DNA from: Myxococcota bacterium
GTDB taxonomy: Bacteria; Myxococcota_A; UBA796; UBA2385
NCBI GenBank assembly: GCA_023150805.1
Contig: JAKLKF010000015.1
Coordinates: forward strand, 1 to 64,000
Length of the DNA stretch: 64,000 nucleotides
Direction: 5' to 3'
Below the pieces are notes generated by a model. That model did no database searches. It saw only the letters and a program-made list of their open reading frames with translations, and was not told the DNA's origin. Positions 246 through 51,231 of the stretch are shown here, piece by piece (positions within the stretch are counted from its first letter, which is position 1; every line of letters starts with the position of its first letter). The translations under genes and the position numbers were made by a program.

Positions 246-2447
246 GTGGAGCGGGTCGCCACCTCGCCCGACACCAGCACGCTGTCCCACAGCTACGACG
301 CCGGCGGCCGGCTGCTTGCCATCGAGGGGTCCCTGGTCCATGATCCCGGGACCAGGGACTTCGTGACCAGCATCGCCTACAACGCCCGCGGCCAGCGCAC
401 CGAAGTGGTGTACGGCAATGACACGCGGACCCGTTCCACCTACGACCCGCACCGCTTCTGGCCCACGCGCATCCTGACCGAGCGTACCAGCGACAGCCCC
501 GCGACCAAGCTGCAAGACCTGGCCCTGTCCTACGACGTCGTCGGCAACGTCATCGGCATCACGGACGCCGCCCAGCAGACCGAGTTCTTCGCCAACGTCC
601 AGGTCGACGCCGACCAGGCCTTCGCCTACGACGCGCTCTACCGGCTGGTGAGCGCCACCGGCCGCGAGAAGGCGGCCCTGGCCCAGCCCGGTGCGGCCGA
701 CCCGACGCCAGGCGGCGTGCCCGACGGCGGCGCCGCCAACACGGTCATGGCCCGGTACACCGAGGAGTTCCAGTACGACCAGGCCGGCAACCTCACGGAG
801 ATGAAGCACATCCGGGGTGGCTCCACCGTCTGGCGCCGCGGCTACGCCGTGGCGGCCGACAGCAACCGACTGGTCAAGAGCAGCGTGCCGGGCGACGATC
901 CGGACGACCCGGGCACCTACAGCGACCTGTACACGACCTCGGCGCGCGGCGCGATCGTGCGCATGCCCCACCTGCGAAGCGGCATGGACAACCTGGTGCC
1001 CGACCACCGGGACCAGGTCCGCAAGGCCGAGCTGAACAGCAGCGGGGACGTGGCCTGGTACGCGTATGGCGCCGACAAGAAGCGGGTGATGAAGCGTGTG
1101 ATCCGCGGGCAGAACGTCGAGGACCGCATCTACGTCGGCGGCTGGGAGGTGTGGCGCAAGCGCGTGAGCGGGGCCTTGCAGGAGGCGCGCGAGACGCTGC
1201 ACGTCCTCGACGGCGACAAGCGGGTGTGCCTGGTCGAGAGCGTCACCGTCCACCCGACCCTGTCCACGCCGATGGTGCTGTTCCGCTTCCAACTCGGCAA
1301 CCAGGTCGACAGCGCCTCGCTGGAGGTCGACGAAGCTGGGGCGGTCCTCAGCTATGAGGAGTACCACCCCTACGGCAGCACCGCGTGGTGGGCGGAGAAG
1401 AGTGGGGTCGAGGTCAGTCGGAAGCGGTACCGGTACACCGGGATGGAGCGGGACGAGGAGACGGGGCTGCAGGTGCACCACCACCGGTACTACGCGCCCT
1501 GGTTGGGGCGGTGGACGAGCGCCGACCCGGCGGGGCTGGTGGATGGGGGGAATCGGTGGGGGTATGCGCGGGGGCGGCCGACGGGGGGGAGGGATCCGAG
1601 TGGGCTTGAGACCAGTTCAGGTTCTGACAGCAAGAAGGAGTCGGACAGCTCCGACGGTGCATCACCAGCGATGAGTGTGACCGATTCTCGGGCGGGTCCA
1701 GATGCCACTCCGGCGGAAGTCCGCGCTGTCGCAGAGCAGGCCGGCTGGGGGTATCCCGCCGATGTCGTACCCGAATGGAACCCCGAGACGGGCAAGTGGA
1801 ATGTCGGCGAGAAAGTCTGGAAGCTACCGGATGACGACACCTGGGCGCGCCGAGAGGGCGCTCCTCCGTCTGGAGGTGCGTGGAACGCCAATAAGCACCG
1901 CCTCTACGGAACACCGTTCGGCATCGGAATGGTCGGCGCCTTCGACAAGGCGATCCAGGGGCCGACGGGCGTGAGCCAGGAAGTCGAAACCCAGCTCGGC
2001 ATTGGAGGACCAGTCAGTCTGCTCTTCCGTGCAGGCGGCCGGGCTCTTGCTCTGGCGAGGAGACTCTCACCCGTTCACCAGCTCAGGAGTGGGATTGAGC
2101 GGGCTACGGCAGAGGGCCTGTATGAGGGGGCGGAGGAAGCGGTAAGCAACCTTGCGCCAAGATTCCGGATTGCGCCGACCGTCGGTGAGTACCTCTCTGC
2201 CAAGGCCCCCATGCAAGTGACGCCGGGCGTTCGCACTCTAACAGGTCGGCACGTGAACGACATCGGACGAGTGGAGCCGTGGAGAGCGCATTTCGACGAG
2301 TATGGTAGACTGATTGGACGAACCGACTACAATGCCGGAAACAAAGCTGCCGGCATACCGGATATTCACTACCACACCTACGAGTGGGGGCGTGGAAAGA
2401 CGCCTCTCGAAACAGGAAGCCACCTCCCCGGGGAGTATGTGCCATGA
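246..2447 (+). CDS. Rhs-family protein, C-terminal part with variable tip (5'-truncated)
   Basis: Residues 1 to about 450 carry degenerate YD repeats (SYDAGGRLLA, EEFQYDQAGNLTEMK). They end in an Rhs core signature near residues 395-455: the RYRYTGMERDEETGL motif, then RYYAPWLGRWTSADP, closing with RDPSG. Downstream is a non-repetitive tip of about 280 residues ending in a conserved-looking block (WRAHFDEYGRLIGRTDYN, IPDIHYHTYEW, HLPGEY). This is the layout of Rhs/YD polymorphic toxins, where the core forms a shell and the tip is the effector. Full Rhs proteins are usually well over 1,000 residues. Here an in-frame stop at 117-119 and repeats at 1-219 replace the N-terminal half, so this is a displaced 3' end or a truncated gene. 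The GTG start at 246 is nominal. The tip family is not firmly identified; the His-rich block resembles a polymorphic-toxin nuclease-type domain. The stop overlaps the next gene by four bases. Confidence 0.8.
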   Translation: MERVATSPDTSTLSHSYDAGGRLLAIEGSLVHDPGTRDFVTSIAYNARGQRTEVVYGNDTRTRSTYDPHRFWPTRILTERTSDSPATKLQDLALSYDVVGNVIGITDAAQQTEFFANVQVDADQAFAYDALYRLVSATGREKAALAQPGAADPTPGGVPDGGAANTVMARYTEEFQYDQAGNLTEMKHIRGGSTVWRRGYAVAADSNRLVKSSVPGDDPDDPGTYSDLYTTSARGAIVRMPHLRSGMDNLVPDHRDQVRKAELNSSGDVAWYAYGADKKRVMKRVIRGQNVEDRIYVGGWEVWRKRVSGALQEARETLHVLDGDKRVCLVESVTVHPTLSTPMVLFRFQLGNQVDSASLEVDEAGAVLSYEEYHPYGSTAWWAEKSGVEVSRKRYRYTGMERDEETGLQVHHHRYYAPWLGRWTSADPAGLVDGGNRWGYARGRPTGGRDPSGLETSSGSDSKKESDSSDGASPAMSVTDSRAGPDATPAEVRAVAEQAGWGYPADVVPEWNPETGKWNVGEKVWKLPDDDTWARREGAPPSGGAWNANKHRLYGTPFGIGMVGAFDKAIQGPTGVSQEVETQLGIGGPVSLLFRAGGRALALARRLSPVHQLRSGIERATAEGLYEGAEEAVSNLAPRFRIAPTVGEYLSAKAPMQVTPGVRTLTGRHVNDIGRVEPWRAHFDEYGRLIGRTDYNAGNKAAGIPDIHYHTYEWGRGKTPLETGSHLPGEYVP

Positions 2448-3300: not shown

Positions 3301-4404
3301 TCAGTCCCCCAGCTCCGTGCCCGCTCGCAGGATCGCGACGTAGCGGGTGAACTGCCAGGCCCGGTCGCGCTTGCGGGCGTCGACGGGCGCCAGGATGCCC
3401 GCATCCTCCAGCACCTGAACGGCCTTGCCCGCGGCGGGTCGCGAGCAGTCGAGGAGGGCAACCACCCGGCTCACCGTGACGACGGGATGCTCGGGCAGCA
3501 GCTCGAACAGCCGGAGGGCGATGACCGTGGCGTCCGGGCGCGCCAGCAAGGCCGCCCGCCCCGCGGTGACCACCTCGTGTAGCCGCCTGGCCGTCCCGAC
3601 CGCCTCGTCGGCGACGACCGCGACCCCCTCCAGGAAGAAGGCCAGCCATCCTTCCCAGTCGCCCTCCTCCCGGACCGCGCTGAGGCGCCGGTAGTACTCG
3701 GCGCGGTGCTGCTTGAGGAAGAGGCTCAGGTACAGCAGGGGCCGGCTCGACAGGCCCCAGTGCCGCAGCAGCAGGGTGATGAGCAGCCGCCCCAGGCGCC
3801 CGTTGCCGTCCAGGTAGGGGTGCAGGGTCTCGAACTGCACGTGCAGCAGGCCCACCCGCACCAAGGGGGGAAGCGCGTCGTCGGCGTGCATGGCCCGCTC
3901 GAAGTCGCCCAGCAGCTCAGGCAGGCGGCGCGGGGGCGGGGGCACGAAGGCGGCGTTGCCGGGCCGGGTGCCCCCGATCCAGTTCTGGGACCGCCGCACC
4001 TGGCCGGGCTGCTTGCTGCGCCCACGCGCTCCCTGGAGCAGGCGGCGGTGGGCCTCCGACAGCATGCGCATCGACAGCGGCAGCCCGTCGTCGCGCGGCA
4101 GCTCCGCCCAGGCCCACTTCAGCGCGTCCAGGTAGCCGCAGACCTCCTCCACGTCCGCGTCGGCGGGTGGGCCGCCCGCGGCCTCGACCTCCAGCAGGTC
4201 CAGCAGCGTGGCCTGCGTCCCCTCGATCTGCGCGGAGAGCACGGCCTCCTTGCGGACGAAGGCGTACACGAACCACTCGACCGAGGGCACCATGGCGCCC
4301 GCGAGGTCCAGGCGCAGCAGGGCTTTCTCGGCACGCCGGAGCAGGTCCTGCAGCGGCGGGTCGAGGACCACGGGCGGGTCGGCGGGCGGAAGGGGGAAGG
4401 GCAC
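3301..4404 (-). CDS. Fic-domain protein (predicted AMP transferase) with C-terminal winged helix
   Basis: Class II Fic protein. An N-terminal inhibitory motif SAQIEGT fits (S/T)xxxE(G/N). The catalytic Fic loop HPYLDGNGRLGR holds the His base and the anion-binding GNGR. A C-terminal helix-turn-helix-like region follows (VVTVSRVVALLDCSRPAAGKAVQVLEDAG, taken in parts). Such proteins usually transfer AMP to target hydroxyls and are self-inhibited by the Glu of the N-terminal motif. GTG 4404 is the first conventional start, but coding similarity continues upstream in frame to 4458 (VSVAGENVDAFVPFPLPP is typical of the family N-terminus). There the frame meets TGA directly after an ATG that sits behind a perfect AAGGAGGT. 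The true start is therefore CTG 4456-4458, or the gene carries a one-base shift. Two palindromes lie just upstream and suggest autoregulation. Confidence 0.88.
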   Translation of the reverse strand: MPFPLPPADPPVVLDPPLQDLLRRAEKALLRLDLAGAMVPSVEWFVYAFVRKEAVLSAQIEGTQATLLDLLEVEAAGGPPADADVEEVCGYLDALKWAWAELPRDDGLPLSMRMLSEAHRRLLQGARGRSKQPGQVRRSQNWIGGTRPGNAAFVPPPPRRLPELLGDFERAMHADDALPPLVRVGLLHVQFETLHPYLDGNGRLGRLLITLLLRHWGLSSRPLLYLSLFLKQHRAEYYRRLSAVREEGDWEGWLAFFLEGVAVVADEAVGTARRLHEVVTAGRAALLARPDATVIALRLFELLPEHPVVTVSRVVALLDCSRPAAGKAVQVLEDAGILAPVDARKRDRAWQFTRYVAILRAGTELGD

Positions 4405-4470
4405 GAAGGCGTCGACGTTCTCGCCCGCGACCGAGACCCGGTCGGTGAGGCCGGTCAGCCTTCACATGGG

Positions 4471-4478
4471 ACCTCCTT
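4471..4478 (-). promoter_or_regulatory. Strong Shine-Dalgarno before a dead-end ATG-TGA
   Basis: On the minus strand AAGGAGGT is followed after three bases by ATG (4467-4465) and immediately by TGA (4464-4462). The Fic-coding frame begins just after that stop (CTG 4458-4456). A GTG overlapping the ATG (4465-4463) is one base out of phase with Fic. This is either a minimal start-stop leader that tunes translation or a frameshift at the gene start. Confidence 0.55.
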
Positions 4479-4496
4479 GTGAAGCGATCGCTTCAC
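4479..4496. promoter_or_regulatory. Operator-like palindrome 1 (fic upstream)
   Basis: GTGAAGCGATCGCTTCAC is a perfect 18-bp palindrome abutting the ribosome binding site. Its core AAGCGATCGCTT recurs at 4513-4524. The centres are 31 bp apart, about three helical turns, so two dimers would bind the same face. The helix-turn-helix at the C-terminus of Fic is a candidate ligand; the regulator is inferred. Confidence 0.6.
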
Positions 4497-4512
4497 GGGT
4501 GGAGGCGCTGAC

Positions 4513-4524
4513 AAGCGATCGCTT
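4513..4524. promoter_or_regulatory. Operator-like palindrome 2 (fic upstream)
   Basis: AAGCGATCGCTT is a perfect 12-bp palindrome identical to the core of the 4479-4496 palindrome, about three turns upstream of it relative to the Fic gene. Confidence 0.55.
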
Positions 4525-4549
4525 CGTGGCGATCCACGGTGTGCAGGAG

Positions 4550-4582
4550 GTCGGGGTCAGGACGCTCCACTTGCCACTCAAC
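4550..4582 (+). repeat. Interspersed repeat, copy B (flanks fic)
   Basis: Second copy of the 2890-2922 repeat in direct orientation, with three mismatches. With copy A it encloses the Fic gene, its palindromes and the 3' stem-loop in a segment of about 1.7 kb. Confidence 0.6.
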
Positions 4583-4739
4583 CCTTGCCTCGTCCACACG
4601 CACCCGCCCGCCGCGCCCCGCCCCGCAACCTGACAGCATGCCCCCCCATTCTTCCGTCCCCTCCACCCCGACCCCCTCGCCGACGCTGTCCCCAGCACCA
4701 TCCTCGCACCCCGCACCCTGTCCCCATCAGGGCCGGTCT

Positions 4740-5198
4740 CTGCGGGAGACGGTTCGTCTGGGCGCCTATATGGGGAGCCACCTGGCCCAGCGCCCCCCGC
4801 TCCCTCGGGGGGCGTTGTCGTCTCGGGGTCCCCATCGCGCAGCCCGGCAGGGAGCACGGCCTGCAGGTGGCGCTGACGCGGGCCGGCGGCGCGGCGGCGG
4901 ACCTGCGAGGGCCGGGCCGCGGGCCGGGGCCAGGTGCCATGGCCCGGCGGGCCGCCCTCGACGCCGCCCATCGCGGGCGGTCGCGGGCTCGGCGCGCGCG
5001 CGGTTGGTGGCGCTGACGACGGCGCTGCACCTGGGCTTCGACGCCCTCGGCGCGATGGCCTGGAGGACAGACCTGCGCGTCGTCGACTCCGGCGGCCTGG
5101 GCTCCTGGAGCGGGAGGCAGCACGACCGGCCCGAGGGCTGGAGCCTCGCCCGACGGTGCGCCAAGGGGGAGAAGGCCCGAAATGGGATCAAAGGATAA
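4740..5198 (+). pseudogene. Possible decayed membrane-glycosyltransferase remnant
   Basis: This lies within a stretch of about 770 bases with no intact gene. Two short peptides in one frame look natural: LRETVRLGAYMGSHLA near the start and ALGAMAWRTDLRVVDSGGLG near 5045-5100. Both resemble C-terminal segments of polytopic glycosyltransferases (ETVRLGRWL..., AWRTDLxVVDxLGL). The sequence between them is low-complexity and the expected residues are missing, so any gene is badly eroded. It could equally be chance similarity in GC-rich DNA. No other feature was recognised from 4583 to 5293. Confidence 0.2.
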
Positions 5199-5293: not shown

Positions 5294-6985
5294 CTAGCCC
5301 AGCGGGCCGGCCAGCCGGACGCTCACGAAGCGCGCGAAGCGCTCCCGCGCGGCCTCGGTGCCGGCGTGGGCGGCGGTCTCGCCGAGCAGCACGGCCTGCA
5401 GCAGGTAGCCGGCGGTGAGCGCGATCCGCCGCGCCTCCCACTCCATCCGCGCCCGGTCGCCGTCGGCCGCCAGCGCGCGCAGCCGCTCGACCAGTCCGCC
5501 GAGCACCTGGCCCACGACCCGCAGCTCGGCGCCCAGGTCGGGGGACAGCGCCCGGGCCCGCGCGCCCAGGTCGGCCAGGACCGCGGACAGCCCCCCCTCC
5601 TTGGCCTCGGCCCGCAGCAGGTCGAGCGAGAGCACGTTGGTGGTGCCCTCCCAGATGGGCAGGGTCTGGGCGTCGCGCAGGATGCGCGGGATGCCCGTGT
5701 CCTCGACGTAGCCGGCGCCACCGAAGGCCTCGAGCGCCTCGCTGGCGACGGCGACGGCCTGCTTGCCGGTGGTGAGCTTGGCGATGGGCAGCAGCGCCCG
5801 CAGCCGCCGCTGCTCATCGGCGCTGGCCAGGCCGGTCTCGACCCGCCCCAGCAGGCCGGCCAGCTCGGCCACCAGGGCGAAGGCGCCGGCGGCCTCGGCC
5901 TGCAGCTCCTCGAGCACGCGGCGGTGGGCGGGCTGCTCGGCCACAGGGCGGCCGAAGGCGACCCGGCGGCCGGCGTAGTCCCGGGCCCAGATGGCGGCCT
6001 GGGCCATCGCCGAGCTGCTGCTGGCGGCGTTCCAGTAGCGCGTGATGTTGAGCATGGTGCTGATGCTGGGCACCCCGCGCCCGATCGCACCCACCCGGCG
6101 CGCGCGCACGCCGTGCAGGGCCAGCTCGGCGGTGGGCAGGGCCTTGGTGCCCAGCTTGTCCTTGAGCCGGCGGATCTCGATGCCGGACAGGCCCCCCTCG
6201 GCGTCGCGCTCGACCTCGACCAGGAACATGGTCAGGCCCTTGCTGCCCGGCAACACGCGGCCCTCGCCGTCGACGATGCGGGCCAGGGTCAGCGCCATCT
6301 CGCTGGTCGTCGCGCTGGTGAACCACTTGACGCCGTACAGGGCGTACTCCTCGCCGCGGTCGTCCAGCGGGCGGGCGATGGTCTCGCTCAGGCCGACGTC
6401 GCTGCCGCCGGGCCGCTCGGTCATCCACTGGCCCGAGGTGATGAACAGCTCGGGCTCCCGGGAGAGCAGGCGCGGCAGCAGGCGGGCCTGGACATCGGGC
6501 GGGCCCATGTCGAGCAGGACGCGCGCGGCGGCGTCGGTCATGGCCAGGGGGCAGGAGAAGATGGCGCTCGACGCGCTGAAGAGGTGGATGAGGGCGGCCT
6601 GGACGGTGCGGGCCCAGGGGCCCAGGTCGGCGTCGTAGCCGACGGCGACCAGGCCCTCGTTCGCCGAGAGGACCTGCAGCGCGTCCCAGGCGGGCGAGAC
6701 CTTGATGACGTCGATGCGCCGGCCCCAGGGGTCGTACCGCAAGAGCCGCGGCGGCTCTTCCTCGGCCTGGCGCATCAGGCCCCACAGCGGCCCCGCCGTG
6801 AGCTGGCCCATGCGCTCGATGGCGGGGGTGGCCCGGGCCAGCACCTCGGCCGGCAGCCGGCGCCGCAGCTCGTCCTGCAGGGCCGGGTCCGCCAGGTACA
6901 GGTCGACGGGCTGGTGGGGCTCCTGGCGGAAGGCGGCGACCTTGTCGGCGGCGGACTCGGCGATGGCGCTGGTGGGGATGGACAC
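5294..6985 (-). CDS. Acyl-CoA dehydrogenase, AidB-like
   Basis: A 563-residue FAD-dependent acyl-CoA dehydrogenase. The middle domain has the AidB-type signature SGQWMTERPGGSDVG, then KWFTSATTSEMAL and GLTMFLVEVERD. The start of the C-terminal domain has RRLKDKLGTKALPTAE, followed by the GGAGYVEDTGIPRILRDA segment and WEGTTNVLSLDLLR, which contact FAD and substrate in the family. The long N-terminal region fits AidB/isovaleryl-type paralogues rather than short beta-oxidation enzymes. GTG 6985 is preceded by GGAGG at a good distance. It would oxidise acyl-CoA or act in an alkylation-response role as AidB does; the substrate cannot be read from sequence. The upstream neighbour on the same strand, 38 bases away, is an unrelated membrane protein. 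Confidence 0.88.
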   Translation of the reverse strand: MSIPTSAIAESAADKVAAFRQEPHQPVDLYLADPALQDELRRRLPAEVLARATPAIERMGQLTAGPLWGLMRQAEEEPPRLLRYDPWGRRIDVIKVSPAWDALQVLSANEGLVAVGYDADLGPWARTVQAALIHLFSASSAIFSCPLAMTDAAARVLLDMGPPDVQARLLPRLLSREPELFITSGQWMTERPGGSDVGLSETIARPLDDRGEEYALYGVKWFTSATTSEMALTLARIVDGEGRVLPGSKGLTMFLVEVERDAEGGLSGIEIRRLKDKLGTKALPTAELALHGVRARRVGAIGRGVPSISTMLNITRYWNAASSSSAMAQAAIWARDYAGRRVAFGRPVAEQPAHRRVLEELQAEAAGAFALVAELAGLLGRVETGLASADEQRRLRALLPIAKLTTGKQAVAVASEALEAFGGAGYVEDTGIPRILRDAQTLPIWEGTTNVLSLDLLRAEAKEGGLSAVLADLGARARALSPDLGAELRVVGQVLGGLVERLRALAADGDRARMEWEARRIALTAGYLLQAVLLGETAAHAGTEAARERFARFVSVRLAGPLG

Positions 6986-7023
6986 GGGGCCTCCAGGGCG
7001 GTCCCCTCCCCTATCCGGTCCCC

Positions 7024-8808
7024 TCAGCGCAGGGTCGGGCCCAGCGGCCGCAGCGAGATCCGGGGCAAGCTGGCTTCCAGGCGGAGACTTCCGCCCACCG
7101 GCGGCGGGCTCCACTCCACCAGCTCGCCGTCGACCACCGCGACGAAGCGGTAGGCGCCGCCCTCCAGCGGCGCGGCGAAGCGCACGTGGACGGCCGCGGG
7201 CCGCCCGTCCGGGGTCAGCGCCTGGACGGTGACCTCCAGGTCGGGGGTGGTGAGCACCTGCCCGACCTGGAAGGTGGCGCCCTCGCCGCGGAACATGCGG
7301 TCCATGGTGTGGCCCAGGAAGCCGCCGTCGGCCTGGATCGCCAGGGTGCGCGCGTCGATTCGCTCGACGGTGCTGCCGACCGCCATCGAGGACAGCAGCG
7401 TCACCCGCCGGGGCGCGGGCAGCGACGGGCCGGGCGCCGCCGTGCGGGCCGCGACGGAGCGGATGAGCCCGGTGTAGCCGACCATCAGCTCGGCGCCGTT
7501 GACGAAGACCAGGGTCTGCCCGGCCAGCGCGGGGTCGGCGGGCGCGTGCAGGGCGCCGGCGTGGAAGGCGCTGGCGCTCGCGGGCCACAGCAGCATGCGC
7601 CCCGGCAGCGCGGTCAGGCCCAGCAGCAGGTTGCCGCCGACCAGCGCCGCGACCACCCGCCGCCGCAGGCCCGGCACCGGCTCGCCGCCAAGCACGCCCA
7701 CCTGCTGCGCGGCCAGGGCCAGCAGGCCGAAGAAGCCGATCCCCGCCCACATCATCAGGCGCGCGGTGGGGAAGGCGCCGGCCGGGGGCACCAGGGCCAG
7801 CAGGCCGCCCAGCAGCAGGAAGCGCGCCGGTCGGGACCCGCGCAGCAGCGGGGCCAGGAGCAGACCCAGGCCCGACAGCAGGCCGACGGCGACCCCGGCG
7901 ACGGCGACCTGGGCGCCGCGGCCCAGGAAGATCCACAGGTCGACCGGCAGGAACAGCGCCTGCCCGGCCGCCATCCAGGGCCCGCGCTCGGCCAGGGCCC
8001 ACAGGAAGCGCAGGGGCTCGCGGCCCGGGTCGACGTAGAGCCCGCTGCCCGCCGCTCCGTAGCCACCCTCCTGGTAGTAGAGGCGCCAGGCGCCGACCAG
8101 CAGGCCGTAGGGCAGAAGGCGCAGCAGCCGGGCCCGGCGGGGGCCCTGCGCGGTGGCCTCCCAGGCGGCGACGTAGGCCAGGGCACCCAGGAAGGGCTCG
8201 CCGACGCCCAGGCCCAGGACCGTGGCGACCAGCGCCCACAGGGGCCTCCCCGCCAGGTGCAGGTGGATCGTCGCGGCGCCGGCGACCAGGGCGAGCAGGC
8301 CGTTGCGGCCGGCGATCCAGCCGACGACCATGGCGTGGTCGTCGTCCAGCGCGAAGAGCAGGGCGGCCAGGGCGGCGGCCAGCGGCAGCCCCGGCAGCAC
8401 CCGGCGGTACACGCCGGCGACCAGCGCGGCGGCCAGGCTCCACCAGGCCAGGCTGTGGGCGTGCTGCAGCGCCGGCGCGTCGGGCCACAGCGCGTAGTCG
8501 AGCTGGTGGGAGAGCACCGCCAGCGGCCGCAGGAAGCAGGCCCGCACGTCGGGATCGGCCCACCACGGCAGGATGCCCAGCTCCTGGAGCGGGCCGTTCA
8601 AGCCGGGTCCGGGCAGGAAGCAGAACAGGCCCCTCCACGGCGCGCCGACGTAGGCCACGCCCGGGTCCTGGGTGAGCACGGCCCGGTGGTACCAGTCGTC
8701 CATCACCAGGCCCGCGCCCAGGGCCGGCAGGCACAGCAGGGTCGACAGCAGCGCCACCCGCAGCGGCATGGACGGCCGGTCCAGCCAGGCCAGCAGCCGG
8801 CGCAGCAC
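7024..8808 (-). CDS. Polytopic membrane protein, glycosyltransferase-like
   Basis: A 594-residue protein with about ten hydrophobic segments through residue 420, then a soluble C-terminal region of mainly beta character. Near the N-terminus LVMDDWYHRAVL gives an acidic DD pair in the first periplasmic loop, as in GT-C and O-mannosyltransferase-like proteins. LDDDHAMVVGWIAGRNGLL and HLHLAGRP follow. This layout (loop DD, many helices, C-terminal beta domain) matches uncharacterised myxobacterial membrane proteins of glycosyltransferase type, but no catalytic motif is certain. GTG 8808 lies eight bases after the stop of the protease gene, so the two are probably co-transcribed. Confidence 0.65.
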   Translation of the reverse strand: MLRRLLAWLDRPSMPLRVALLSTLLCLPALGAGLVMDDWYHRAVLTQDPGVAYVGAPWRGLFCFLPGPGLNGPLQELGILPWWADPDVRACFLRPLAVLSHQLDYALWPDAPALQHAHSLAWWSLAAALVAGVYRRVLPGLPLAAALAALLFALDDDHAMVVGWIAGRNGLLALVAGAATIHLHLAGRPLWALVATVLGLGVGEPFLGALAYVAAWEATAQGPRRARLLRLLPYGLLVGAWRLYYQEGGYGAAGSGLYVDPGREPLRFLWALAERGPWMAAGQALFLPVDLWIFLGRGAQVAVAGVAVGLLSGLGLLLAPLLRGSRPARFLLLGGLLALVPPAGAFPTARLMMWAGIGFFGLLALAAQQVGVLGGEPVPGLRRRVVAALVGGNLLLGLTALPGRMLLWPASASAFHAGALHAPADPALAGQTLVFVNGAELMVGYTGLIRSVAARTAAPGPSLPAPRRVTLLSSMAVGSTVERIDARTLAIQADGGFLGHTMDRMFRGEGATFQVGQVLTTPDLEVTVQALTPDGRPAAVHVRFAAPLEGGAYRFVAVVDGELVEWSPPPVGGSLRLEASLPRISLRPLGPTLR

Positions 8809-49491: not shown

Positions 49492-51231
49492 ATGCAGCCT
49501 GGCAGCATCATCGGGAGGTTCGAGGTCGAGCGCCCCCTGGGACAGGGGGGCATGGCCATGGTCTACAAGGTCCGCCATCGCCAGCTCGACACCGTGCACG
49601 CGCTCAAGCTGCTCAAGATCGGGCACCCCAACCTGGCCCGCCGCCTGCTGCAGGAGGGGCGGATCCAGGCACGCCTGCGCCACCCCAACGTCGTCGCCGT
49701 GGTCGACGTGGTCGAGCACGAGGGCGCGATCGGGCTGCTCATGGAGTACGTCCAGGGCTCCAGCCTGGAGGACTTCCTCTCCGAAGGCCCCATGGAGGTC
49801 GACGAGGCGCTCGACGTGTTCCGGCAGGTGCTCTCGGGCGTGGGCGCCGCGCACGCCGCCGGGGTCACCCACCGCGACCTGAAGCCCGCGAACATCCTGC
49901 TCACGGCCCAGGGCGACCACGTGGTCGCCAAGGTGACCGACTTCGGCATCGCCAAGGTGCTCAGCGAGGACGAGGGCGTGCACCGCACCCGCGCCGGCGT
50001 CGCCATGGGCACCCCCGGCTACATGGCCCCCGAGCAGGTCACCGACTCGGCCGGCGTCGACCACCGCGCCGACATCTTCGCCCTGGGCGCCATCCTCTAC
50101 GAGATGCTGTCGGGCACCGCCGCCTTCCGGGGCCCCGACCCGCTGGTGACCATGAACCGCACGGTGGCGGGGACCTACCTGCCGCTGAGCGAGCGCGCCG
50201 CGGGCCTGCCCCCGGCGGTCTGTCGCGCCGTCGATCGCGCGCTGTCCACCGATCGCGAGGCCCGCTTCGCCGACTGCTCCGAGATGGCGCGCGCCATCTA
50301 CGGCGACCAGGCGGTCGCGCCCGCGCCCCAGGCGCCCACCGTGGTGCCCCGCCCCCGCGCGGCGCCCGAGATCAACCCCACGCCGACGCTGGCCCCCTCG
50401 GACACGCGCCACGGGACCTGCGTCGCCGAGGAGGGCGACGACGGCCCCACCTCGGACACGGACGTCGACGACGCGGCGCCGCCACCCTCGCGCCTGTCCG
50501 AGGCCTGGCGCCGGGAGATCGCCACCGCGGCGGCCCCGCCGCCCGCAGAGCCCACCGAGGCGCCGACCGCGCGCCCGGCCAGCGCCCCCCGACCGGACGC
50601 CACGATCGGCGCCCAGGCCGACCGCGCAGCTCCGGCCGAGCAGGACCCGGAGAAGCCACGGAAGCCCGACGAGTCCTCCGTCAACGCCCGCGACGCCGCC
50701 GACGTGATGGGGGACCTGTTCTGGACCATGGTGCGCGCCACCGCGTGGGGCATGGCCAAGACCCTGCAGTACGGGGGGATCCCCCTGCTGCTCGGGATGG
50801 TACTCGCCTGGCTGGTCGGCAGCCAGGCCGCCCGGCAGCTCGAGGAGCTGGGCACGCAGCGCCAGCAGCAGGCCCTGGCCCTGCACGCCGCGATGGACGA
50901 GGGCCGGGCGCTGGTCCCGGCGCTGGTGGCCGCGGGCGCCAACCCTGCCCTGCTCGCCACCCTCCAGCGCCAGTACGAGCAGGCCCAGACCCCCGAGGCG
51001 AAGGTCGCCGCGGCGCGGGAGCTGTCCAGCGTCATGACCCAGCAGCTCGCGACCCTGCCCCCGCCGGCCACGCCCGAGGAGCAACAGGCCCGCAAGGAGC
51101 TGGAGGCCAGCCTGGCGCGGCTCGACCGCGAGGCGGCCCGCTACGGGGACCTGGATCGCCAGTACGGACAGGTCCAGGGAGGGGTCGGCGGAAAGGTCGC
51201 CGGCCTGCTGCGCATGGCGCCGAACCCGTAG
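49492..51231 (+). CDS. Membrane-anchored Ser/Thr protein kinase
   Basis: A 579-residue eukaryotic-like kinase. The catalytic domain (about 8-270) has a Gly-rich loop (PLGQGGMAMVYKV), the Lys in HALKLLKI, HRDLKPANIL, DFGIAKVL and GTPGYMAPEQ. A disordered Pro/Ala/Asp-rich linker runs to about residue 400. One membrane helix follows (GIPLLLGMVLAWLVGSQA), then an extracytoplasmic alpha-helical, coiled-coil-prone domain rich in Gln/Ala that could sense a signal. ATG 49492 is preferred to GTG 49438 because AAGGAG and a -10-like TACGAT precede it. Confidence 0.92.
   Translation: MQPGSIIGRFEVERPLGQGGMAMVYKVRHRQLDTVHALKLLKIGHPNLARRLLQEGRIQARLRHPNVVAVVDVVEHEGAIGLLMEYVQGSSLEDFLSEGPMEVDEALDVFRQVLSGVGAAHAAGVTHRDLKPANILLTAQGDHVVAKVTDFGIAKVLSEDEGVHRTRAGVAMGTPGYMAPEQVTDSAGVDHRADIFALGAILYEMLSGTAAFRGPDPLVTMNRTVAGTYLPLSERAAGLPPAVCRAVDRALSTDREARFADCSEMARAIYGDQAVAPAPQAPTVVPRPRAAPEINPTPTLAPSDTRHGTCVAEEGDDGPTSDTDVDDAAPPPSRLSEAWRREIATAAAPPPAEPTEAPTARPASAPRPDATIGAQADRAAPAEQDPEKPRKPDESSVNARDAADVMGDLFWTMVRATAWGMAKTLQYGGIPLLLGMVLAWLVGSQAARQLEELGTQRQQQALALHAAMDEGRALVPALVAAGANPALLATLQRQYEQAQTPEAKVAAARELSSVMTQQLATLPPPATPEEQQARKELEASLARLDREAARYGDLDRQYGQVQGGVGGKVAGLLRMAPNP

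Follow-up and report, generated by a model that had tools for sequence, protein, structure and literature searches.

Two palindromes with identical cores lie directly upstream of a fic gene in the 64-kb stretch of Myxococcota DNA analysed here (the window), and both are very probably operators of that gene, bound by the Fic protein itself, dimers of which would repress their own synthesis. This prediction is made from sequence. The sequence of the pair, its uniqueness in the genome, the conserved 31-bp spacing, the promoter overlap in relatives and the covariation with the recognition helix of Fic were established by computation. Because these findings join the precedent of the Fic protein CccR, autoregulation is the best-supported reading of the pair.

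Class II Fic proteins with a C-terminal winged helix are found in many phyla and include the SoFic-type anti-phage proteins. In the accessible parts of the open PMC papers, a specific DNA site for that domain is reported for CccR alone. Comparison of more than 100 loci points to common rules of operator design, with palindromic boxes placed over the promoter at 31-bp intervals, and to the residues that would read them. The array offers a direct test of the restraint on a one-gene, potentially toxic defence enzyme, and the operators of other Fic proteins may be predictable from the recognition helix.

A genome-unique pair of palindromes precedes fic

The pair and the adjoining ribosome site comprise the following features, in coordinates of the window.

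4477-4498, minus strand: proximal operator box (predicted), in the same 22-bp frame as in relatives; contains the perfect 18-bp palindrome 4479-4496
4508-4529, minus strand: distal operator box (predicted), same 22-bp frame; perfect 12-bp core at 4513-4524
4471-4478, minus strand: AAGGAGGT, Shine-Dalgarno-like from its sequence; adjoins the proximal palindrome

GTGAAGCGATCGCTTCAC is a perfect 18-bp palindrome (4479-4496, centre 4487.5), and AAGCGATCGCTT at 4513-4524 is a 12-bp copy of its core (centre 4518.5). An earlier note on this DNA had described two such elements with centres 31 bp apart in front of fic, and the exact coordinates bear out both the spacing and the location: read along the minus strand, the distal box comes first, followed by the proximal box, AAGGAGGT (4478-4471) and an ATG at 4467, which places the pair just upstream of the ribosome site of the minus-strand fic gene.

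The window has a GC content of 73.5% and holds three perfect 18-bp palindromes (60 shuffles: mean 1.20, maximum 6). Since such palindromes are expected at this GC content, a lone one was not used as evidence. The remaining two, at 49912-49929 and 50282-50299, are GC-rich, and their number fits the shuffle expectation. The unusual feature is the identical pair and not the single 18-bp palindrome: identical 12-bp palindromic cores no more than 100 bp apart occur as one pair in the window, compared with four pairs over 60 shuffled windows combined. The 12-mer AAGCGATCGCTT had no match in 100 shuffles of the window and is present in the genome at these two places only (7,772,131 bases searched; genome 90.73% complete), and the 18-mer, with up to three mismatches allowed, has its only genome-wide match at 4479. 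The concern raised earlier that the core palindrome might be a common genome-wide word is thereby answered, as the 12-mer is found only here in 7.77 Mb.

HIP1 is a frequent genomic word of cyanobacteria. A HIP1-like frequent-word reading of the pair was rejected because the inner word GCGATCGC is not over-represented in the 64-kb window (five occurrences vs 4.18 expected, which is the chance level) and because the 12-mer is confined to this site. Palindromes without function that arose by chance or from base composition would be compatible with the frequency of lone 18-bp palindromes in this GC-rich window (three present, shuffle mean 1.2), but not with a genome-unique pair, a conserved spacing, a fixed promoter overlap and covariation with a helix, and we consider this explanation improbable in the extreme.

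The fic gene, its start and its product

The minus-strand gene downstream of the pair has the following features.

3301-4455, minus strand: Fic reading frame, 384 codons plus stop; Fic_N and Fic domains (Pfam), C-terminal winged helix
4219-4236, minus strand: inhibitory-helix motif SAQIEG, residues 74-79; (S/T)xxxE(G/N) at the class II position
3787-3822, minus strand: Fic motif HPYLDGNGRLGR, residues 212-223, from motif match
3325-3525, minus strand: winged helix-turn-helix, residues 311-377, from the predicted fold
3403-3441, minus strand: recognition helix (third of the winged helix), residues 339-351, from the predicted fold; best covariation segment, 337-348
4462-4467, minus strand: ATG then in-frame TGA, at the start position of close relatives

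The Fic motif HPYLDGNGRLGR agrees with HxFx(D/E)GNGRxxR except for one conservative departure (Y for F), and the Pfam Fic score is 60.8 bits (cut-off 24). The inhibitory (S/T)xxxE(G/N) motif ahead of the Fic motif, which marks class II, is present as SAQIEG. In an AlphaFold2 model from 31 sequences (mean pLDDT 87.4, pTM 0.87), the C-terminus folds as a winged helix whose helices span residues 311-319, 328-335 and 339-351, the third of which we take as the recognition helix; the C-terminal domain that had been called helix-turn-helix-like corresponds to this predicted winged helix (311-377 in the model). The top fold matches of the model were 7cb8, a Fic-domain protein of Mycobacterium marinum, and SoFic (3EQX/3ZCN). 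The PADLOC SoFic profile covers residues 13-377 at 351.7 bits (the library gives no cut-off), and the NCBI SoFic equivalog NF046030 scored 135.9 bits against a cut-off of 550; the protein is filed as SoFic-like and not as SoFic because it falls far under the NCBI value. In its own genome, this Fic is the sole match at E ≤ 1e-40 (27 candidates seen, five scored). The neighbours of fic in the window are an RHS-repeat ORF (246-2447, plus strand) and an AidB-like acyl-CoA dehydrogenase (5294-7030, minus strand), and the ORF at 4539-5198 between fic and the AidB-like gene had no Pfam match.

The fic gene may be damaged, since its start reads ATG TGA; a sense codon follows the start in close relatives such as L004 and L005 where the window has TGA. 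The ATG is absent at the corresponding place in the nearest full-length relative found (L160, 75%). The ATG TGA may reflect an alternative start, a damaged gene or an assembly error. If fic has been inactivated, the array would be a leftover operator, which is compatible with autoregulation and which we regard as possible, though unlikely. The ATG TGA at the expected start fits such a relic, as does the relative G042:C35 (L135), which has a fic remnant beside its array; against it, the remaining 384 codons form an uninterrupted frame that retains the catalytic, inhibitory and helix motifs, and fic would still be active if translation began elsewhere or at a non-ATG codon, or if the assembly is wrong here.

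A 31-bp array is conserved upstream of related fic genes

The relatives came from a survey of 377 genomes from the phylum, of which 99 gave a match at E ≤ 1e-40, from 62 loci in named genomes and from later draws; besides the loci from the search, 40 match stretches were taken by position, and the weakest and some contig-end matches were left out. The lag test looked for an 8-of-10 direct repeat within 150 bp upstream, with 40 dinucleotide shuffles as control, at loci numbered no higher than L134 that had 150 bp or more of upstream DNA. Window duplicates and loci with a broken or badly aligned fic (L001, L002, L050, L089, L090, L092 and L096) were left out, as were identical upstream sequences and loci whose alignment started too far inside the protein. 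The close set, to which the window's own locus belongs, comprised 55 fic loci at 55% identity or more.

A search for palindrome pairs before related fic genes had been suggested in the earlier note, and it yielded a recurrent 31-bp repeat: imperfect direct repeats stand at lag 31 in 45 of the 55 close loci, compared with a mean of 2.0 and a maximum of 7 in shuffles, and the other 10 failed the test; a lag of 62 was found in 21/55. From viral contigs, the best 80 of 98 loci found were taken, 71 of which were usable; among those with at least 52% identity, lag 31 was present in 22/24 (0.7 expected from shuffles). At lower identity a lag of 41 is more frequent, both in the viral set below 52% (lag 41 in 25/47, lag 31 in 15/47) and in the distant homologues, 69 loci among L041-L134 (lag 41 in 20/69, lag 31 in 10/69). 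In the distant homologues, inverted half-sites are spaced by about 21 bp, which may represent the same half-sites moved by one helical turn. No obvious box was seen at a Thermus plasmid fic (L255), and a scan of viral contigs found no exact 12-mer pair.

The boxes of relatives are imperfect 22-bp palindromes whose sequence depends on the clade. The majority box is approximately CTAGTAA(A/C)GNNNNC(G/T)TTACTAG, and the core in the window's clade is AAGCGATCGCTT or AAACGATCGTTT. The window has two boxes, and G125, G326 and G165 have three or four. Two boxes were called in 13, three in 33 and four in 9 of the 55 close loci, counts that are no independent evidence because box calling imposes the 31-bp spacing (the lag test is independent of it). 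By eye, the gene-nearest box of the viral-contig loci L170, L171 and L180 seems to overlap the ribosome-binding site (TAGTAAAGGAGG and similar), so that a repressor might act near the translation start too.

The array overlaps the promoter in relatives

The -35-like TTGAC is present within 150 bp upstream in 28 of the 55 close loci and absent in the other 27. It stands at a fixed phase, position 14 of the 31-bp frame and within the first called box, in 25 of the 28 TTGAC-bearing loci, and 15 of the 25 also have TAAAGNAT in the next box, starting 15 bp past the TTGAC hexamer. In the viral-contig set, TTGAC was found in 22/71 loci, with TAAGAT after a 16-bp spacer in 10 of the 22. The position of the start and of the Shine-Dalgarno-like element, taken with TTGAC in box 1 of 25/55 relatives, places palindromic sites over the gene's own promoter, the arrangement known from CccR, and a repressor bound to the boxes would cover this promoter. 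The window's own promoter is weakly seen. The candidate element is the following.

4509-4514, minus strand: TTGTCA, a candidate -35 that occupies the right edge of the distal box, shifted by one base from the TTGAC phase of relatives

The hexamer 16 bp on from TTGTCA is AGCGAT (4487-4492, in the proximal box), a poor -10, and a generic promoter scan gave no promoter.

The repeats might also act as RNA, their self-complementary cores pairing or forming hairpins before the ribosome site and controlling translation. The minus strand of 4455-4530 folds at -28.6 kcal/mol (z -2.33; 3/200 shuffles as good), and the proximal palindrome adjoins the ribosome site. Such a fold is expected from the sequence alone, since two copies of a palindrome always pair in RNA, and the -35 of relatives lies inside the first box, which would leave that box untranscribed. 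The exact 31-bp spacing is kept while the sequence varies, and the link to a DNA-reading helix described below has no role in an RNA model; control at the RNA level is very unlikely.

Operator sequence covaries with the Fic recognition helix

At 124 loci with at least 110 bp upstream and at least 340 residues (7626 pairs), we compared the best 20-bp upstream match with the identity of each 12-residue segment of Fic, controlled for identity elsewhere in the protein. The best of 373 segments was 337-348 (CSRPAAGKAVQV in the window's protein), with a partial r of 0.312; the next four segments all overlap it, and the best one ending before residue 300 reached 0.194. None of 1000 permutations attained the value of 337-348, a statistic in which shared ancestry remains. 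After removal of the window's operator class (116 loci), 337-348 was still first (r 0.303). Control DNA gave r 0.025 and rank 84 at -450 to -300 (121 loci) and r 0.013 and rank 143 at -620 to -470 (120 loci). The 71 viral-contig loci served as a replicate, and 337-348 was again first (r 0.375; best before residue 300, 0.278).

Thinning of near relatives weakens the covariation. In the set thinned to below 70% identity (49 loci) the best segments start at residues 332 and 335 (r 0.167 and 0.161), and 0/1000 permutations reach the value of 337-348. Below 60% (24 loci), 345-356 is first and 340-351 second, and 11/1000 permutations reach the value of 337-348; below 55% (10 loci), the helix has rank 18, with 16/1000 permutations. 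Segment 46-57 leads among the 76 most distant pairs (core identity below 0.40), and 224-235 is slightly ahead of the helix in the thinned viral set (32 loci; 0.217 vs 0.208). For single columns over all pairs, residue 43 ranks first and residue 339 second. L084 (Fodinicurvata, 42% identity) provides a case from across clades: its helix reads TTKPTAGRAI and its upstream DNA holds the palindrome CTAGTAAAGATTTCTTTACTAG, matching the majority class.

Residue 341 was compared in 51 of the 55 close loci, L095, L109, L111 and L112 having been dropped for short or stop-cut proteins. All six proteins with a CGATCG-centred operator carry Ala or Gly at 341, and the 45 others in the close set all carry Thr. 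Since the six make up one clade (82/94), T341 may have changed to A/G just once, and the six are also set apart by columns 90, 116, 231 and 293. Six further loci conform to the pattern by eye. A one-residue code, in which T341 to A/G specifies the CGATCG core, was discarded: the viral-contig loci L169, L178, L190 and L220 break it, with a CGATCG-like core and T or P at 341.

Genome-wide search and arrays at loci without fic

The pattern AAGCGATCGCTT-N19-AAGCGATCGCTT with up to three mismatches had matches in 12 of 356 genomes of the phylum, and the reversed control in none. An intact or contig-cut fic of this class is present at the site in G000, G125, G326, G068 and G165, where 11/11 matches are at fic. 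In G042:C35 (L135), at about 1500-1971, the array adjoins a fic remnant in which part of the inhibitory-helix region and the winged helix survive, the latter sharing 81% identity with its counterpart in L004. Another fic in G042, at C43 (L013), is intact and belongs to the other operator class. The matches in G334 and G168, with three mismatches, look like chance.

The array stands without a detectable fic beside it in G013, G023, G053 and G179. A fic remnant lies about 10.7 kb off on the same contig in G023, a weak partial match on another contig in G179, and G013 and G053 gave no fic match at E ≤ 1e-8. The loci of G013 (C18, L136) and G023 (C14, L137) are homologous, and each has two 31-bp-spaced operator pairs of two sequence classes upstream of an ORF of 173-193 aa; the DNA between the pairs differs, and a scan of the L136 copy of this ORF found no Pfam or PADLOC match. 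In G053:C86 (L143, 166-208), an operator pair is located about 200-250 bp before an AbiEi-type antitoxin gene. In G179:C273 (L141, about 1500-1610), four boxes at 31-bp spacing occur with no detectable fic, and the following sequence looks degraded.

The boxes could instead be operators of an unlinked regulator of fic, with the winged helix of Fic serving for sensing or for keeping the enzyme inactive. Arrays at loci without a detectable fic would agree with this, and so would the C-terminal domain of Sofic, which is reported as important for toxicity in the accessible part of PMC12249575. An unlinked regulator is disfavoured because it would not be expected to coevolve with the helix of Fic: in the full sets the operator tracks the recognition helix above other parts of the protein. 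Moreover, genomes that possess a fic of this class have the sites at the fic locus only. We judge an unlinked regulator to be improbable.

Proposed mechanism of fic autoregulation

Autoregulation of fic through paired operators, as proposed in the earlier note, is supported by the unique pair, the recurrence of the 31-bp repeat in 45/55 close loci, its place over the promoter in TTGAC-bearing relatives, the covariation with the recognition helix and the precedent of CccR. We infer binding by one dimer per box, cooperativity, repression and toxicity. One Fic dimer would contact each 22-bp box through its two recognition helices. Boxes every 31 bp are three helical turns apart, so that successive dimers would sit on the same side of the DNA and could assist one another in binding; the fixed three-turn spacing suggests cooperative binding of two dimers. 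Since relatives have the -35 in the first box and their -10 region one box further on, bound Fic would block RNA polymerase and keep its own synthesis low. Low synthesis would fit a potentially toxic AMP-transferase of the SoFic phage-defence type.

By analogy, the array might be more than an operator and act as an antitoxin-like partner in a one-gene defence system, which we consider doubtful. Dimers of Fic on the array would be kept inactive (or deAMPylating), and a competitor for Fic, such as phage DNA or a phage protein, would loosen the hold of the array and release the toxin. The accessible part of PMC10628234 provides a chemical precedent in the DNA-induced switch of CbFic2. If this were true, the fic-less arrays at L136 and L137 would be decoys or trans-targets.

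Comparison with known systems

CccR (YPK_0951) of Yersinia pseudotuberculosis is a class II Fic protein with a C-terminal helix-turn-helix and, according to the accessible part of its report, was shown to be an autorepressor that binds palindromic DNA near -35/-10, with a 46-nt footprint that contains inverted 10-mers and a 26-bp spacer (PMC9755527). Its autoregulation also appears in a 2026 review (PMC12894286). The locus described here shares with CccR, as far as those sources go, a class II Fic protein, a C-terminal helix-turn-helix (predicted here) and palindromic sites over its own promoter. It differs in having 22-bp palindromes every 31 bp, whereas CccR has 10-mers with N26, and CccR is described in the same partial sources as a T6SS effector. 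Fic-HTH autorepression is therefore already known from CccR; the conserved 31-bp array and the covariation with the recognition helix were not met in the literature searched. No 31-bp operator array ahead of fic genes was described in the open PMC papers searched (most subscription-journal papers and preprints lie outside this scope).

The protein resembles the SoFic/Sofic anti-phage protein (Shewanella, E. coli) in fold over most of its length, in the PADLOC profile, in the inhibitory helix and in the Fic motif, and is unlike it in scoring under the NCBI SoFic equivalog cut-off. DNA binding of SoFic had not been shown as of 2023, according to the accessible part of PMC10628234, and the text of the Sofic paper PMC12249575 does not mention DNA-binding, wHTH, helix-turn-helix or autoregulation. 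The C-terminal helix-turn-helix of CbFic2 of Coxiella burnetii binds DNA, with a proposed switch to a deAMPylating dimer (PMC10628234). CbFic2 is likewise a class II Fic protein with a C-terminal helix-turn-helix; in contrast to the specific sites predicted here, it bound random DNA, and an operator array is not among its features in the part of the report that was accessible.

AbiEi is a separate antitoxin, a protein unrelated to Fic. As the antitoxin of the AbiE type IV toxin-antitoxin system, it is autoregulated by cooperative binding to inverted repeats, according to the accessible part of PMC7319586. In contrast to AbiEi, the locus described here combines a toxin-type enzyme and a predicted DNA-binding domain in one chain.
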